Source: Solibacillus sp. R5-41 (lineage in GTDB: Bacteria; Bacillota; Bacilli; Bacillales_A; Planococcaceae). From it: a stretch of DNA of 64,000 nt. A program made the position numbers and the translations under genes. The DNA is taken from positions 3,030,001 to 3,094,000 of the forward strand of contig NZ_CP024123.1 of the NCBI RefSeq assembly GCF_002736105.1, written 5' to 3'. Of this stretch, positions 1 through 44,390 are shown piece by piece. Within the stretch, counting starts at the first letter, position 1, and each line of letters opens with the position of its first letter. The notes under the pieces are model-generated. The model was given only the letters and a program-made list of their open reading frames with translations. It was not told the DNA's origin and did no database searches.

Positions 1-1528
1 CCTTCGCATCAAATTCCTGCGCTTTAATTTCTTTTTCAACCATTTCTTTCCCTTTAACGACACTTTCTTCACGCACATGCTTTTTAAAGAATTGTTTAAT
101 TTTATTTTTTGCTTGAGAACTTTGTGCAATTTTAATCCAGTCTCTGCTCGGACCGAATGATTGCTTCGATGTGAGTACTTCAATAATGTCGCCCGTTTTC
201 AGTGGCGTATCAAGTGGTACCATCTTCCCATTTACTTTTGCACCAATTGTTTTATTCCCTACTTCTGAATGGACGCGGTAAGCAAAATCTATCGGCACAG
301 AGCCTGCTGGTAGCTCGATTACATCCCCTTTTGGTGAAAATACATACACCATGTCCGAAAATAAATCGAATTTTAACGATTCCATAAATTCTGCGGCGTT
401 CGATGATTCATTTTGGAATTCTAAAATTTCACGGAACCATGTTAACTTTTGGTCAATATTTTCAGCCTTTTCAACAGTTTTACCTTCTTTGTATGCCCAG
501 TGTGCTGCGATACCGAATTCTGCAATTTTATGCATTTCCTTCGTACGAATCTGCACTTCAAGTGGATCACCATATGGACCAATGACAGTTGTATGAAGCG
601 ATTGATATAAATTTTGCTTTGGCATCGCAATATAATCTTTAAAGCGGCCAGGCATCGGTTTCCATAATGTATGAATAATTCCGATTACAGCATAACAATC
701 TTTAATGCTATCCACTAATATGCGAACGGCAAATAAATCATATATTTCATTGAACTGCTTTTTTTGCAACGTCATTTTTCGGTAAATGCTATTTAAATGC
801 TTTGGTCTGCCGTAAACGTCGGCTTCAATTTCTACTTCTTTCAGCTGTGAATTAATTTCATCCATTACATTATCTAAATAGGCTTCACGCTCATCACGCT
901 TTTTCTTCATTAAGCTGACAATGCGGTAATATTGTTGCGGATTTAAATAACGTAATGCTGTATCTTCCAGCTCCCATTTTACTTTTGAAATCCCTAAACG
1001 ATGGGCAAGCGGCGCGAAAATTTCGAGTGTTTCCTGTGAAATACGGCGTTGTTTTTCGGCTGGTAAATGCTTCAGCGTTCGCATATTGTGCATACGGTCT
1101 GCTAATTTAATTAAAATCACACGGATGTCCTGCGCCATTGCTACAAACATTTTCCGGTGATTTTCAGCCTGTTGTTCTTCTTTCGACAAATACTTAATTT
1201 TTCCAAGCTTCGTTACGCCATCGACAAGTTTCGCCACTTCTTCACTAAATGCATTCACTAAATCCGCGCGCGTCACATCCGTATCCTCAACAACATCATG
1301 TAAAAAACCTGCTGCTACAGTTTCCGGATCCATTTGAAGCTCAGCTAAAATTCCCGCTACTTGAACAGGATGTATAATATAAGGTTCCCCAGAGCTCCGG
1401 AACTGTTCTTTATGTGCTTCTTTCGCCACCTCGTACGCTTTTACGACAAAGGCAACATGTTCATCATTCATATAGGATTTGGCGAGCTCGAAAACATCTT
1501 CGGGCGCCAATATTTGTTCTTTCGCCAT
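1..1528 (-). CDS. relA: Bifunctional (p)ppGpp synthetase/hydrolase Rel (partial; C-terminus outside window)
   Basis: Long Rel/SpoT-family enzyme that makes and degrades the stringent-response alarmone (p)ppGpp. Translating the minus strand gives an N-terminal HD hydrolase domain (HDVVEDT; later [10 protein letters not shown]), then the synthetase domain ([14 protein letters not shown], then [11 protein letters not shown] and [11 protein letters not shown]) and the start of the TGS domain (VFSPKGD). The intact HD motif suggests a bifunctional enzyme. An AAGGTGG ribosome site supports the ATG at 1528; an in-frame ATG lies 21 nt upstream. The ACT and zinc-finger regions run off the left edge. 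It lies downstream of apt behind a terminator hairpin, so it probably has its own promoter. Confidence 0.95.
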
Positions 1529-2282: not shown

Positions 2283-4330
2283 TCAAGAACTCAGCCGTTC
2301 ATCAAACCATTGTTTTAACTCTTTATACGTGGCATATAATAGCTTTTGCTCTAATTCTATTTGTTGTGATCGTATTTTATAGGTCGATGCTTCTGATAAT
2401 GCCATTTTTGGTGCATTTTCATTCACAGTCGTCAGACCATTCTCTATTGTAACAAATCCTAGTTCAAAAAACACTTTTGTCATAAATTTAATTACATCGA
2501 CATTCAGTCCGATATGCTGTGATAATGGCTGAATATGAGCTTTCAAGTCGAATGACGGGCGTTTTTTAAGAAATGCATAATACCATTTAAAATGATCTCG
2601 CGTTGGCATTCCATTAAAATATTGAGAGTCCGCTGTATATAAATGCACATAAATTCGTTCCACTGCAATGGTTTTCAATAGCTTTTCTAAAACTGTTGTC
2701 TGACTCGGTAAATCAAGCAAGACGATATTTGACGTCAGTTCATGCAAGACACTTTCTTCCGTAATCCATACAATCGGCTTCGGAATTAACTGTTCAAAAT
2801 GTGCTTTCGTTTGTTCTGAAAAGGCAATGAAGTCTGTTGTTTCAAGTGGTATTTTTGCTAACCAATTCGCCGTTTGACTTTTGCCACGTATATCAAATAA
2901 TTGCCATTGGTTTACTTGAACATCTTGAATCATGAATTGCGGCTTTTTATTGCCTTGCCACTCATTGATTTGTAAATCGCCGACTAACGAAATCGGGATG
3001 CCATACGAAATTTCATCATGTAAATGACCTTTTCCAAAGCCAATGCTATCCAGGGTCCCGTAAGCATCCTCTAATTCCATTTTCAAATGATTTTCAGCAG
3101 AGCCAATTTTGCGCATCGATTTCACCTTCACATCACGGATTGCAAAGAGTGGTTTTGTAAATTCTGTCCCAAACGGAGCCAGTTTACGAATATCTTCAAT
3201 CGCCTCTACTGTAATTTCACTCAGTTCAATCGGCAAATCGATTTGTAAAGTTTGAACAAGCTTCTCTTCCGTTAATACGAGCTTAGCTTGTGCATTTAAA
3301 CGCTTTCTTAGTTCATCCACTTTTTCCATTGGAAGCTTCATCCCTGCTGCCATTGGATGTCCACCAAAATGCGGTAAAATTTCACGGTTTTTCGCTAACT
3401 CATTAAACAAATGGAAGCCTTCGATACTTCGTGCAGAGCCTTTTGCCATTCCTTTTTCTCGGTCAATCGATAAAACGATAGTAGGACGATAATATTTTTC
3501 AACTAATCGCGATGCTACAATGCCTACAACACCTGGATTCCATCCTTCTTGAGCAACAACTAATACAAGACTATCTTTAATCGTCGGATTCGTTTCAATC
3601 ATCGCAATCGCTTGCTCTGTCAGCTCTTCTACAATTTTTTTTCGCTCTGTATTTTTATCATTCAGCTGCTTGGCCAGCTGATTCGCTTGCTCTCGCGCTT
3701 CACTCATTAAAAATTGAACGCCTGGTGATGCATCGCCTAAACGACCAATTGCATTTAACCTAGGGCCAAAATAAAAGCCAACTGTTTCTTCATTAATTTC
3801 TTTTTGCACAGTACTACTTACTTCACAAAGTGCCGGTACCCAAGGATTAGGTGATTGACGTAATGCCTTTAATCCACGTTGAACTAAATAACGATTTTCC
3901 CCGACAAGAGGTACCAAGTCAGCTATCGTTCCAATTGCAACATACTCAAATAAATGGTCAGGTAGCTCACCATATAAAGCGTGCGCTAATTTAAAGGCTA
4001 CACCAACACCAGCAAGCTCACCAAATGGATAATGCCCCGCTGGTATGCGCGGATGCACAATGACATCAGCTATTGGCAATTCATCTCCCGGCTCATGGTG
4101 ATCCGTGACGATGACATCCATCCCTAGCTCTTTTGCGAGACGAATCGGTTCAATACCACTTATACCATTATCGACTGTTATAATAAGTTGTACGCCTTTT
4201 TCGTGTGCTTCACGAAACAACTCTTCATGCGGTCCATAGCCGTGAATAAAACGATTTGGAATGATAAAATCCACATCCGCTCCTAAATCGAGCAGTACAT
4301 TGAGTAAAACCGTTGTACTTGTAACACCAT
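2283..4330 (-). CDS. recJ: Single-stranded-DNA exonuclease RecJ, 3' exon
   Basis: Encodes all of RecJ after the first catalytic motif. It resumes in the middle of an Asp codon (G|AT) and reads GVTSTTVLLNVLLDLGAD, then the DHH motif VIVTDHHEPGD, a DHHA1 domain with GGHPMAAGM, and an OB-fold/C-terminal region. Joined to the 5' exon it makes 773 aa in one frame, close to the B. subtilis length (786). RecJ is a 5'-3' exonuclease in recombination and repair. Without splicing this segment has no own ribosome site and lacks the first metal-binding Asp residues. The intron ends at 4331. Confidence 0.9.
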
Positions 4331-4379
4331 ATAGTGATAGGTAAGTTTTTGATATAATCGCCAACTTTTCCCCCACTTC

Positions 4380-4413
4380 ACACCGTGCATGAGACTTTCA
4401 CCTCACACGGCGT
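4380..4413 (-). ncRNA. Group II intron domain V
   Basis: 34-nt hairpin with stem ACGCCGUG/CACGGUGU, an internal bulge, and upper stem UGAG-GUGAAAGU-CUCA. The catalytic-triad position reads CGC rather than the commoner AGC, as in some bacterial intron classes. It lies 49 nt from the 3' splice site, leaving room for domain VI. Confidence 0.85.
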
Positions 4414-5113
4414 TCCATCGAAAAGAATCAATCCTCCCGACTAGAGCCTGTCCCTCCACCGCTTATTATGGCAGCTTCAAAGGTACTGTGACTCCACTCT
4501 CACGGTTAGTAAATCAGTTTTAATTGGTCGCCCATTTATATACTGAACTGCTTCACAGATAGGTTACTATCTCCACATCAACCGCTTTCCACGTTCCGAT
4601 TTCCTTATCCTTGCATAGATCCTTAGGTTTCTCCTATAGTCCTGTATGCTGGAACTTGCCTGTAACAAGTTATGGGCTTTCATAACAGCGTATTTTTACT
4701 CCCCCACACATACAATGGCATCTGCCACCTGTTGCATTTCTACAACATTTACGTCTAGACCTGTACTTCCAGAGATTCGTCAGTGCCTTCATAGCACATT
4801 CTAACCATAGATATTTTATGGACTCCCGGCATATAGGACACACCATCTACCGCTAGACAGCTTTCGTTTTTTACAGTGTGAAAGGTTTGTTCACTTTGTA
4901 AAATGACGGTATCTCTCTGCCGACTTCACCGAGCTTCATACTTCGCTAGTTAACCTTAGTAAAAGCATGTCGGAGTATTAGAGTAGGCGTTTCAGGGCGT
5001 TCCTCCATCATTCCACCTATCAAGAAATCAGTTCTCCTAGGGAAAATCAATTACGCCTTAGCTTAATTGATTTTGGAGCCTTATCTTTATTCAGTAAGCG
5101 TTTTAGACGTCTA

Positions 5114-5298
5114 ATCAATTACGCCTCGGCGTAATTGCGTCCAGATTTTTTTCGAGCTCGCTCGAAAAGCTCCCCTGAAAAATCTGTGACATCCGCAGGG
5201 CATTAACTTGATTCAGCAGGGGTTTGAACCCACACTGAATAAATTTGCATATTTAGCATTCATCCCCTACTTTTTAAAAGTAGTGGACTTCTGCTGAA
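5114..5298 (-). repeat. Interspersed repeat family 1, copy A (inside the intron)
   Basis: About 185 nt, read on the minus strand from TTCAGCAGAAGTCC to GGCGTAATTGATT. It aligns with copies at 31942-32122 and 48621-48795. Predicted hairpins include ATTCAGTG.../...CTGAAT, a TTTTCGAGC/GCTCGAAAA stem and AATTACGCC/GGCGTAATT. It is bracketed by inverted CCTTATCTTTATTCA (5079-5093) and TGAATAAAGATAGG (5305-5318). Confidence 0.85.
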
Positions 5299-5363
5299 GC
5301 AAGTTGAATAAAGATAGGCGCATTCCCTAGTGTCTAAGCTTTTCACTTAGAAACGTGTCGCAC

Positions 5364-5637
5364 CCGCATCGTAATCCCCGTACACAACGATTTTCTCACC
5401 TTCATCAAGCGCTTGCTCAATACGTGCAACCGCCTCTTCCATACCCGCCATTAAAAATGGATCATGATATTGGCTGTCATCCACAGTTAATAATTGTTGT
5501 GCTTGTTCAACAGATTCGCACCCTTTAGCTAATAAAATTTTAGAAGCAATTGTTGAAATATTTAATGCTTCACTCATTTTTTTTACAGCCTGCTCATCTG
5601 GTTCATTTACTGTCCAAACTTTTTTCGATTGAATCAT
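5364..5637 (-). CDS. recJ: Single-stranded-DNA exonuclease RecJ, 5' exon
   Basis: Encodes RecJ residues 1-91 plus the first base of codon 92. The exon ends in VVYGDYDAD with the final Asp split by the intron; this is the first metal-binding motif of DHH-family phosphoesterases. The ATG at 5637 is chosen because GAGGAAGTG precedes it at good spacing; an upstream in-frame start would add 28 residues not typical of RecJ. The neighbouring divergent gene is lapA, the same arrangement as B. subtilis recJ-yrvD. Confidence 0.9.
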
Positions 5638-5797
5638 TTTTTTCACTTCCTCATGCAGTTTATTATACCGAAAAGTGGGCTTGTTTTGAAAAGAATTGTG
5701 TTTCGAAGAGAAATCCCCCATTGGTTTAATAAATACTTAATAAAGGAAATAAACTAAATAGATCAGCTTATTATTTGAAAGTGAGGAGTTAGATGCT

Positions 5798-26074: not shown

Positions 26075-26200
26075 TCATATATACTAAGACTCGCCTGTTA
26101 TTACATTCAAGGTGATCGCATGCGATACTTTTGGAACCCTGTCAGCGCGGTTGTAGCGGGTGCTACAAACAATAACATTAAAATACTACCATACCAAACT
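26075..26200 (-). ncRNA. L21 leader (autoregulatory ribosomal protein leader)
   Basis: The minus-strand leader of rplU contains GCACCCGCTACAACCGCG, CTGACAGGGTTCC and ATCGCATGCGAT, resembling the Firmicute L21 leader, which is thought to let L21 control its own operon. Boundaries are approximate. Confidence 0.65.
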
Positions 26201-27361: not shown

Positions 27362-27611
27362 GCACTCACCCCACCTTTTTGTCTAGTATATGATTCATCC
27401 AAAAATCCGATTCATAACGAAGGGGTGAAAGGGCAAACACGATGTTGGTCACCAAGGCGTTGTCACAGGTCATCGCGATATTAGCCTTTGTTTCTTTTTT
27501 TCTGAATATTTATTGTTGTTCCTTTGTCGCTGGAGTCGGTATCAACTTGTATTGGTATATAAGTTCCACTTTCCCTATTTGTACGTTGACTTGTTTTTAT
27601 CCCAAAAAAAT

Positions 27612-31710: not shown

Positions 31711-31941
31711 ATTAAGTACTCCCTTTCTATTTAGGCCATTATCTCTTCGATGAAATTATTAAAATCATACCCTTTATTATAGCGGATAGAATCGAAAAAT
31801 TATAGTGTTCTAAGCACTGAATCTCGACTTTTGTCGAATGTTTTTTCTCGTACGCTACTTTTCTATTGTATTTCTATTTTCTCAACGAAACAATTAATTT
31901 TTACTATGTAAGATTTAACAATCCCACGATGCAAATTACTA
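31711..31941. other. mreB upstream intergenic stretch
   Basis: AT-rich, no convincing reading frame. Only a TATAAT-like element (31776-31781, minus) stands out before repeat copy B begins. Confidence 0.4.
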
Positions 31942-32122
31942 CAGCAGAAGTCCACCATTGCTATAAGTATGGGATGAATGTCAAGTATAGCCTTTATTAC
32001 GTAGGGGTTCTAACCCCAGCTGAATCAAATTGAAGCCCCGGCGGATGTCACAGTTTTTTAGAGGAGTTTTCGATCAAGCTCGAAAAAAATCTGGACACAA
32101 TTACGCTAGGGCGTAATTGATC
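31942..32122 (+). repeat. Interspersed repeat family 1, copy B
   Basis: About 181 nt between mreB and radC, plus orientation. CAGCAGAAGTCC, GGGATGAATG, CCCCAGCTGAATC, GGCGGATGTCACAG, the TTTCGA...TCGAAA hairpin, ATCTGGACACAATTACG and GGCGTAATTGATC all align with copies A and C. Confidence 0.85.
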
Positions 32123-43990: not shown

Positions 43991-44390
43991 AAACTCCCTC
44001 ATCACTAAAAGGACGAGGGAGTTGTTTCGCGGTACCACCTTTATTTCCAATGGCTTGAGTCAAGCGTTCGCATTCTGCGTCACTCCTCATTCAGCAATCC
44101 TCATGAACCTTAAGTTCACTGCGGTTGCTTCATTTCGTCGTTCCTTGACTGACAAACGCTTTCTTTCAAGCCATTTATTCGTCAATTTACGCTTTGTGAA
44201 ACACTTTTTATAAAGCCAATTGGCACTTCATTCGATAACGGTGTTAAACCGGACATTAGCTACTCTTTGTTCACTAAGTCAACTCCTAGGCTACCTTCTG
44301 CTTGTGCAATGTAGAAACTTTTCAGCTACCGTTTCCTCTCTAACCATCACGTTCAAGCATACTCTTCCTACTCTACGTTTCAATTATATA
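43991..44390 (-). promoter_or_regulatory. T-box riboswitch leader of valS
   Basis: On the minus strand the T-box core AAAGGTGGTACCGCG (plus 44028-44042) is followed by terminator stem AACTCCCTCGTCC/GGACGAGGGAGTT-type (43991-44022). The long upstream leader fits stem I and II/III. Uncharged tRNA-Val would favour antitermination. The specifier codon and 5' end were not resolved; a TTGACG lies further upstream. Confidence 0.88.

Follow-up and report, generated by a model that had tools for sequence, protein, structure and literature searches.

An ORF-less group II intron in an active-site codon of recJ in Solibacillus sp. R5-41 and its relatives

The recJ gene of Solibacillus sp. R5-41 is interrupted on the minus strand, at 5364|5363 and 4331|4330, by a group II intron that carries no maturase gene. 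Splicing of this intron, which a first-pass annotation made from the DNA letters had rated likely, is supported by the kept pairing of its RNA and by the purifying selection that acts on RecJ, and we consider it probable that the intron splices and that RecJ depends on it. The case is unusual in the active-site codon that is split, in the six genomes in which no maturase was found, and in the repeated loss of the intron ORF. Positions refer to the window, the whole stretch of 64,000 nt that was analysed, which lies in a genome (G000) assembled as one contig of 4.28 Mb that is 99.99% complete.

The split recJ gene

The first-pass annotation placed an intron of 1,033 nt at 5363-4331 on the minus strand, in sense orientation in recJ, and these limits are exact, the 5' end reading GTGCGACACG and the 3' end CTATCACTAT (Table 1). 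The ends of the RNA are those of a group II intron, with GUGCG at the 5' side and CUAU at the 3' side, in agreement with the GUGYG/AY rule. Joining of the exons gives GAT TAC GAT GCG G|AT GGT GTT ACA AGT and thereby restores GDYDADGVTS in a single open RecJ frame, with the last Asp codon split in the way that had been described. The first Asp residues of GDYDAD (motif I) are active-site residues of the DHH phosphoesterases. In the unspliced transcript the frame of the 5' exon reaches a stop codon at intron nucleotides 15-17 (ORF end 5347), so that unspliced RNA cannot join the two halves of RecJ. An intact second recJ, with the split copy inactive, had been named as a finding that would tell against this picture; the protein of the 3' exon has a single match in the genome (E<=1e-20), and no such second gene was found.

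Table 1. Features of the split recJ gene and its intron, in window coordinates
Feature	Position	Strand	Remarks
recJ 5' exon, ends GAT TAC GAT GCG G	5364..5637	-	ATG at 5637-5635 chosen as start; another ATG at 5721
candidate IBS1 AUGCGG	5364..5369	-	weak
ORF-less group II intron, 1,033 nt	4331..5363	-	without sense-strand frame >=100 aa
~278-nt insertion, apical loop of domain I hairpin	5046..5323	-	intron 41-318; 9 nt there in relative G034
copy of ~187-nt dispersed repeat, inside the 278-nt insertion	5114..5298	-	repeat matches in G000
domain I core	4815..5036	-	RF02004, 173.4 bits, E 2.6e-39, whole model covered
candidate EBS2 GUAAAU	4747..4752	-	weak; 5/6 pairs with exon -13..-8, hand-counted
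candidate EBS1 UUGUAU	4710..4715	-	weak; faces exon -6..-1 AUGCGG; UCGUAU or near form in most relatives
domain IV remnant, 16 nt	4422..4437	-	~2,040 nt in relatives with maturase ORF
domain V, 34 nt, ACGCCGUGUGAGGUGAAAGUCUCAUGCACGGUGU	4380..4413	-	within RF00029 match
domain VI	4333..4377	-	candidate branch-point A at 4338, unpaired, 8 nt from 3' end
recJ 3' exon, AT GGT GTT ACA AGT ... stop	2283..4330	-	frame continues RecJ

Ribozyme structure and pairing

Both the group II identity of the intron and its ORF-less state, as proposed at first sight, are borne out by the Rfam domain matches, the 34-nt domain V and the lack of a frame of at least 100 aa. Domains V-VI match RF00029 (59.1 bits, E 4.7e-9, 4415-4331), and this Rfam match ends exactly at 4331, which places the 3' end of the intron independently. 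The domain V that had been recognised before the 3' end is indeed present at 4413-4380; its catalytic triad is CGC, where the Rfam consensus has AGC.

Pairing of the ribozyme has been kept through compensatory changes. A consensus structure of 214 pairs was derived from 13 introns longer than 2 kb, namely ten family members with a whole ORF, one with a split ORF (G048) and two from outside the family (L090 and L107, see below). The Solibacillus intron forms 207 of 213 consensus pairs over domains I-III and V-VI. Values for the other maturase-free copies are 208/212 in G080, 209/212 in G229 and 211/214 each in G089 and G010; the copy in G024, also without a maturase, is clearly eroded, with 159/182 pairs formed and 32 more gapped. 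When the substitutions of the Solibacillus copy were shuffled 2,000 times, 17.4 broken pairs were expected (minimum 11) as compared to the six seen, and 0.87 two-sided compensations (maximum 5) as compared to the six seen, in a test that disregards relatedness and uses the majority base as the ancestral one. The same shuffle is weak for G080 (4 broken vs 8.3, minimum 2) and for G229 (3 vs 8.3, minimum 3). Left out of the pairing test were L103 (core-cutting motif absent), L097 (no 3' end) and G063 (3' part on another contig).

The candidate EBS and IBS elements of Table 1 come from complementarity and from a column scan, and rival windows remain in both. Candidate EBS1 and EBS2 stand in the usual order, EBS2 first, and each is fully paired in 9 of 20 introns, with other windows equal or better. 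The EBS1-IBS1 candidate of the Solibacillus copy includes three G-U among its six pairs, and a stretch of domain V pairs better by chance in the scan.

The same codon in relatives

The intron core without exons was searched against 261 genomes of the family and matched in 85, the matches listed being mostly short ones to domains V-VI. Thirty loci were fetched. In the Solibacillus locus and the next 20 (L034-L053, 74-88% identity), the match to the recJ 5' exon ends at one and the same residue, by which chance is excluded for the site; the nine weaker loci (L054-L062) have no RecJ match. The 3' junction lies at the same codon in 19 out of 19 of these relatives in which it was read. A search pattern composed of exon end and intron start occurs in 21 of the 261 family genomes, representing 7 of 19 genera, and the reversed control pattern in none of the 261; the order-level search covers the same 261 genomes. 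The named genomes gave the pattern in 26 stretches, 20 of them with a RecJ match, and L089, L095, L099, L100, L105 and L106 were dropped for having none. RecJ 5' exons are present in L083, L097 and L098, with no intron 3' end found in the DNA that was searched. The dropped stretch L099 carries at 88-110 (minus strand) an intron start identical to that of L098 from the same assembly, perhaps marking another site to which a related intron homes.

Outside the family, two Bacillaceae recJ genes harbor introns of 2.79 kb with frames of 640 and 639 aa (L090, L107), and shorter recJ introns are found, of 778 nt in Pisciglobus halotolerans (L103), of 668 nt in Firmicutes bacterium M10-2 (L102) and of 627 nt in an Erysipelotrichaceae bacterium (L108). 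In each of these five loci, joining of the exons gives a RecJ frame that stays open, for 461 to 820 codons. In Bacillota, the last Asp codon of the GDYDAD motif in recJ is thus a recurrent home of group II introns.

The ORF-bearing recJ introns of relatives (L064, L066, L072 and others) use the identical codon and have ends identical to those of the Solibacillus intron, and the ribozyme of the latter is 86-89% identical to the three that were compared (G022, G034 and G228). They are 2.77-2.80 kb long and encode a reverse transcriptase (RT) of 637-639 aa in domain IV, whereas the Solibacillus copy lacks the RT and contains a repeat. The intron-encoded protein (IEP) of L064 (637 aa) shows an RVT_1 match and a sub-threshold HNH match. 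The tentative assignment of the intron to class B is based on its 5' end and on the abundance of class B introns in Firmicutes, as stated in a passage of PMC3919590.

Loss of the maturase gene

Eleven of the 21 family introns keep the domain IV ORF of 637-639 aa and one (G048) has it split in two, which leaves nine without it (G000, G010, G021, G024, G038, G052, G080, G089 and G229). Mapped on full-length relatives, these nine represent at least eight different deletions. The number of separate losses may be lower than that of deletions, since the G052 deletion is contained within that of G038, and since G000 and G024 have both lost nearly all of domain IV with indistinguishable end points (16 and 9 nt are left, of dissimilar sequence). 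The deletions of G080 and G229 are not nested, which indicates that the ORF was lost separately in these two.

The first-pass annotation reported no maturase in the window, and this extends to the whole single-contig genome, in which no group II maturase was found. The search for a related group II RT that it had called for was run and returned a single RT, with 448 bits to Drt2 and 48 bits to the group II maturase model (cut-off 300). Its ORF is matched once by RVT_1, at 46 bits, and by TIGR04416 in two pieces of 48 and 26 bits, against a cut-off of 300. This protein (G000:C1:3571789) was considered as a maturase acting in trans and rejected as being Drt2, an anti-phage defence RT. The gene stands beside a PDC-S14-like gene and an HNH gene (L004, G000:C1:3570544-3574392) in what is likely a defence island. 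Two weak domain-I matches, L002 (1501-1644, 39.1 bits) and L003 (33 bits), were rejected as further intron copies, as the core matches the genome once; an isolated weak domain V piece of 30.6 bits lies at G000:C1:2040402 on the minus strand.

Among the relatives, TIGR04416 gave no match at E<=1e-10 in the genomes of G010 (assembly 90% complete), G024, G080 and G229. An RT in G089 with 55 bits to TIGR04416 was rejected as a group II maturase, being retron-like with a protease-like tail as judged by eye. In all, no group II maturase was found in six of the 21 intron-bearing genomes (G000, G010, G024, G080, G229 and G089) by TIGR04416 and RVT_1 searches, which could miss a very odd maturase and which in the relatives were limited to matches at E<=1e-10. 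The other three ORF-less recJ introns (G021, G038 and G052) occur in genomes with other group II maturase genes elsewhere.

Since no group II maturase was found in its genome, the Solibacillus intron would splice either unaided by protein or with the help of general host factors, of which RNA chaperones and DEAD-box helicases are examples, and on balance the sequence data favor splicing that is independent of a maturase. The reading that a maturase is nevertheless supplied in trans, be it an unrecognised protein, the Drt2 RT, or one from a plasmid that was lost or escaped assembly, appears unlikely to us. It would agree with the statement, in a section of PMC4424553, that bacterial ORF-less introns nearly always occur beside related IEP-bearing ones, and G038, G052 and G021 fit it, but the nearly complete one-contig Solibacillus assembly has Drt2 as its single RT found, and G080, G229, G024 and G010 lack a TIGR04416 match at E<=1e-10, where G089 has one to an RT that by eye is of non-group-II type.

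Horizontal spread and uptake of a dispersed repeat

The ribozyme cores are far more alike than the recJ exons that surround them. Identities of core and exon are 96.8% vs 59.5% for G089/G228, 93.3% vs 59.1% for G080/G229, 92.9% vs 60.9% for G010/G022 and 89.0% vs 61.3% for G000/G022. The intron tree, which is mostly unresolved and for which the bootstrap had not settled, groups G010 with G022 (97/87) and places G089 within the g17 introns (100/97), unlike the RecJ tree, in which G089 groups with G080 (100/100). The branch of the Solibacillus intron is long (0.16 vs a median end branch of 0.067), and recJ is uninterrupted in the other 15 genomes of its genus. As judged from these comparisons, the intron has spread horizontally between genera: the similarity of the cores, the conflict of the trees and the intronless congeners together argue for horizontal homing followed by repeated ORF loss, and strict vertical descent fails to explain them.

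The insertion in domain I of the Solibacillus copy occupies a loop whose length differs among relatives. When the first 334 nt of the intron are folded, the stem CUAGGGA/UCCCUAG is retained and carries the inserted segment as a closed rod, with a z of -7.7 over the full 334 nt. The ~187-nt repeat within it has strong internal hairpins and occurs in at least 39 further places in the genome (40 of 266 candidates scored, own included), one of which is at window 31939-32121. The closest copies among the candidates scored are 89-90% identical over nearly the full length and up to 92% over shorter parts; sequence comparison suggests that the insertion is old. G160 and G151 have the repeat in abundance; it is weaker in the congener G158, as in two genomes of another genus (G034 and G038), and was not found in G022 or G010, which are near relatives by intron. 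Because of this abundance in the genus and the absence from the G022 and G010 searches, the segment was probably taken up after the intron arrived in this lineage.

Selection on RecJ

The joined RecJ frame is open in Solibacillus and in 19 of 20 relatives, the exception being G063, which is not joinable with its 3' part on another contig; in G010 the frame is open until the contig end (392 codons). Between the Solibacillus RecJ and that of the intronless sister G160, dN is 0.032 and dS 0.537 (YN00), corresponding to a dN/dS of about 0.06. The dN to the outgroup G151 (NG86) is 0.158 for Solibacillus and 0.161 for the sister, and the amino-acid changes that can be assigned to a branch number 4 and 12, respectively. 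Other pairs give dN 0.058 and dS 0.914 (G080 vs G089, neither with a maturase), 0.029 and 0.409 (G229 vs G228, YN00), and 0.152 and 1.802 (G024 vs G022, NG86), NG86 being quoted instead of YN00 for some distant pairs. By these estimates RecJ stays open under purifying selection. Since recJ carries no intron in any of the 15 other congeneric genomes, part of the selected Solibacillus branch may pre-date the insertion.

It could be argued that the intron is inactive, splicing having failed after loss of the maturase, and that recJ became a pseudogene too recently for decay to show. The long branch of the intron, its six broken pairs, the weak EBS1 pairing and the 278-nt insertion in domain I, together with a selected branch that may partly pre-date the intron, would be in line with this, but we regard such a state as quite unlikely, and slightly more so than help in trans. 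The RecJ frame is intact at the low dN/dS given above and with no excess of changes relative to the sister, the joined frame is open in each of the six maturase-free genomes (in G010 to the contig end), the paired positions of the ribozyme change in a pair-keeping manner far beyond the shuffles, and the insertion is self-closing and sits in a length-variable loop. Production of RecJ from the 3' exon alone, for which a GTG-start ORF exists (4376-2283, starting in domain VI), or as two separate pieces is highly improbable. The first Asp residues of GDYDAD would be missing from the GTG-start ORF, and the stop at intron nucleotides 15-17 keeps unspliced RNA from joining the halves.

Discussion

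A splicing-dependent recJ can be pictured as follows. A group II intron of the class B kind has its home site in recJ, at the final Asp codon of GDYDAD, and would have arrived by horizontal transfer while its RT/maturase was still encoded. Then the whole domain-IV ORF would have been lost and the repeat-bearing segment gained in a peripheral loop of domain I; both changes are visible in the sequence, and their order is the one we propose. What remains would be a splicing-only ribozyme. Domain V and the pairing of IBS with EBS would guide its two transesterifications, the bulged A of domain VI would serve as the branch point, and G|AT would be rejoined to yield normal RecJ. The activity of RecJ would then hang on splicing of the intron.

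It is about an even question whether this extends to the wider view that, in at least six species, a DNA-repair enzyme depends on a maturase-free group II ribozyme, that the repeated loss at a single codon is a 'domestication', and that the rod or the efficiency of splicing could tune the level of RecJ. If true, bacteria would repeat at one site a step that is thought to precede organellar and spliceosomal introns. A single site here provides six species in which no maturase was found, and it lies in a conserved gene, where failure of splicing should come at the cost of RecJ. With the ORF-bearing relatives at the same codon, these species form a natural series in which to ask how group II introns of bacteria come to dispense with their protein. 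Gene finders may annotate an intron-split recJ as a pseudogene.

A literature search in openly licensed papers found no paper on an intron in recJ. Chee and Takami reportedly described, in 2005, a group II intron in recA of Geobacillus kaustophilus; both introns split a housekeeping gene of DNA repair, but the genes differ. For C.te.I1 of Clostridium tetani, the relevant part of PMC3919590 gives in vivo splicing with no IEP in the genome. Similar to the recJ intron, it is described there as ORF-less and class B-related, with 5' GUGCG and no IEP found in the genome; the Solibacillus intron is likewise of this type, as it encodes no IEP itself and none turned up in its genome. According to the same text, C.te.I1 lies in a surface-layer gene, its 5' splice site is shifted and its 3' end has four alternatives, unlike the recJ intron, which is a single insertion with canonical ends in a conserved repair gene, occurs in 7 of 19 genera of the family and shares its codon with relatives that bear an IEP. 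Organellar ORF-less group II introns are splicing-only elements fixed in housekeeping genes after loss of the IEP; as summarised in a section of the 2015 review PMC4424553, they rely on nuclear-encoded splicing factors, whereas none is known for the recJ intron. For bacteria, that review names one ORF-less intron without a cognate maturase. In a 2022 survey, 281 of 2,381 introns of representative genomes are given as being without an IEP, a figure that counts introns and not maturase-free genomes (PMC8919778), from which ORF-less copies appear less rare than the 2015 review held.

Elsewhere in the Solibacillus genome, the locus L155 (G000:C1:548000-566500, plus strand) contains five domain V-VI motifs at 4477, 9083, 11572, 13073 and 14710, with 30-38 bits at an Rfam cut-off of 40. 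They lie downstream of an SLH S-layer gene and a surface protein with a signal peptide, and four of the five shortly precede reading frames without a signal peptide. The frames, named by eye, are a short S-layer-like tail, a peptidase-like, a leucine-rich and a 5'-nucleotidase-like one. The layout resembles the alternatively spliced surface-layer locus of C. tetani, in a genome in which no maturase was found; a passage in PMC3919590 speculates that such remnants in other Firmicutes are inactivated. Three further RNAs on the minus strand of the window score above their Rfam cut-offs: a T-box leader at 44006-44384, an L21 leader at 26077-26162 and a Bacillaceae-1 RNA at 27434-27500.
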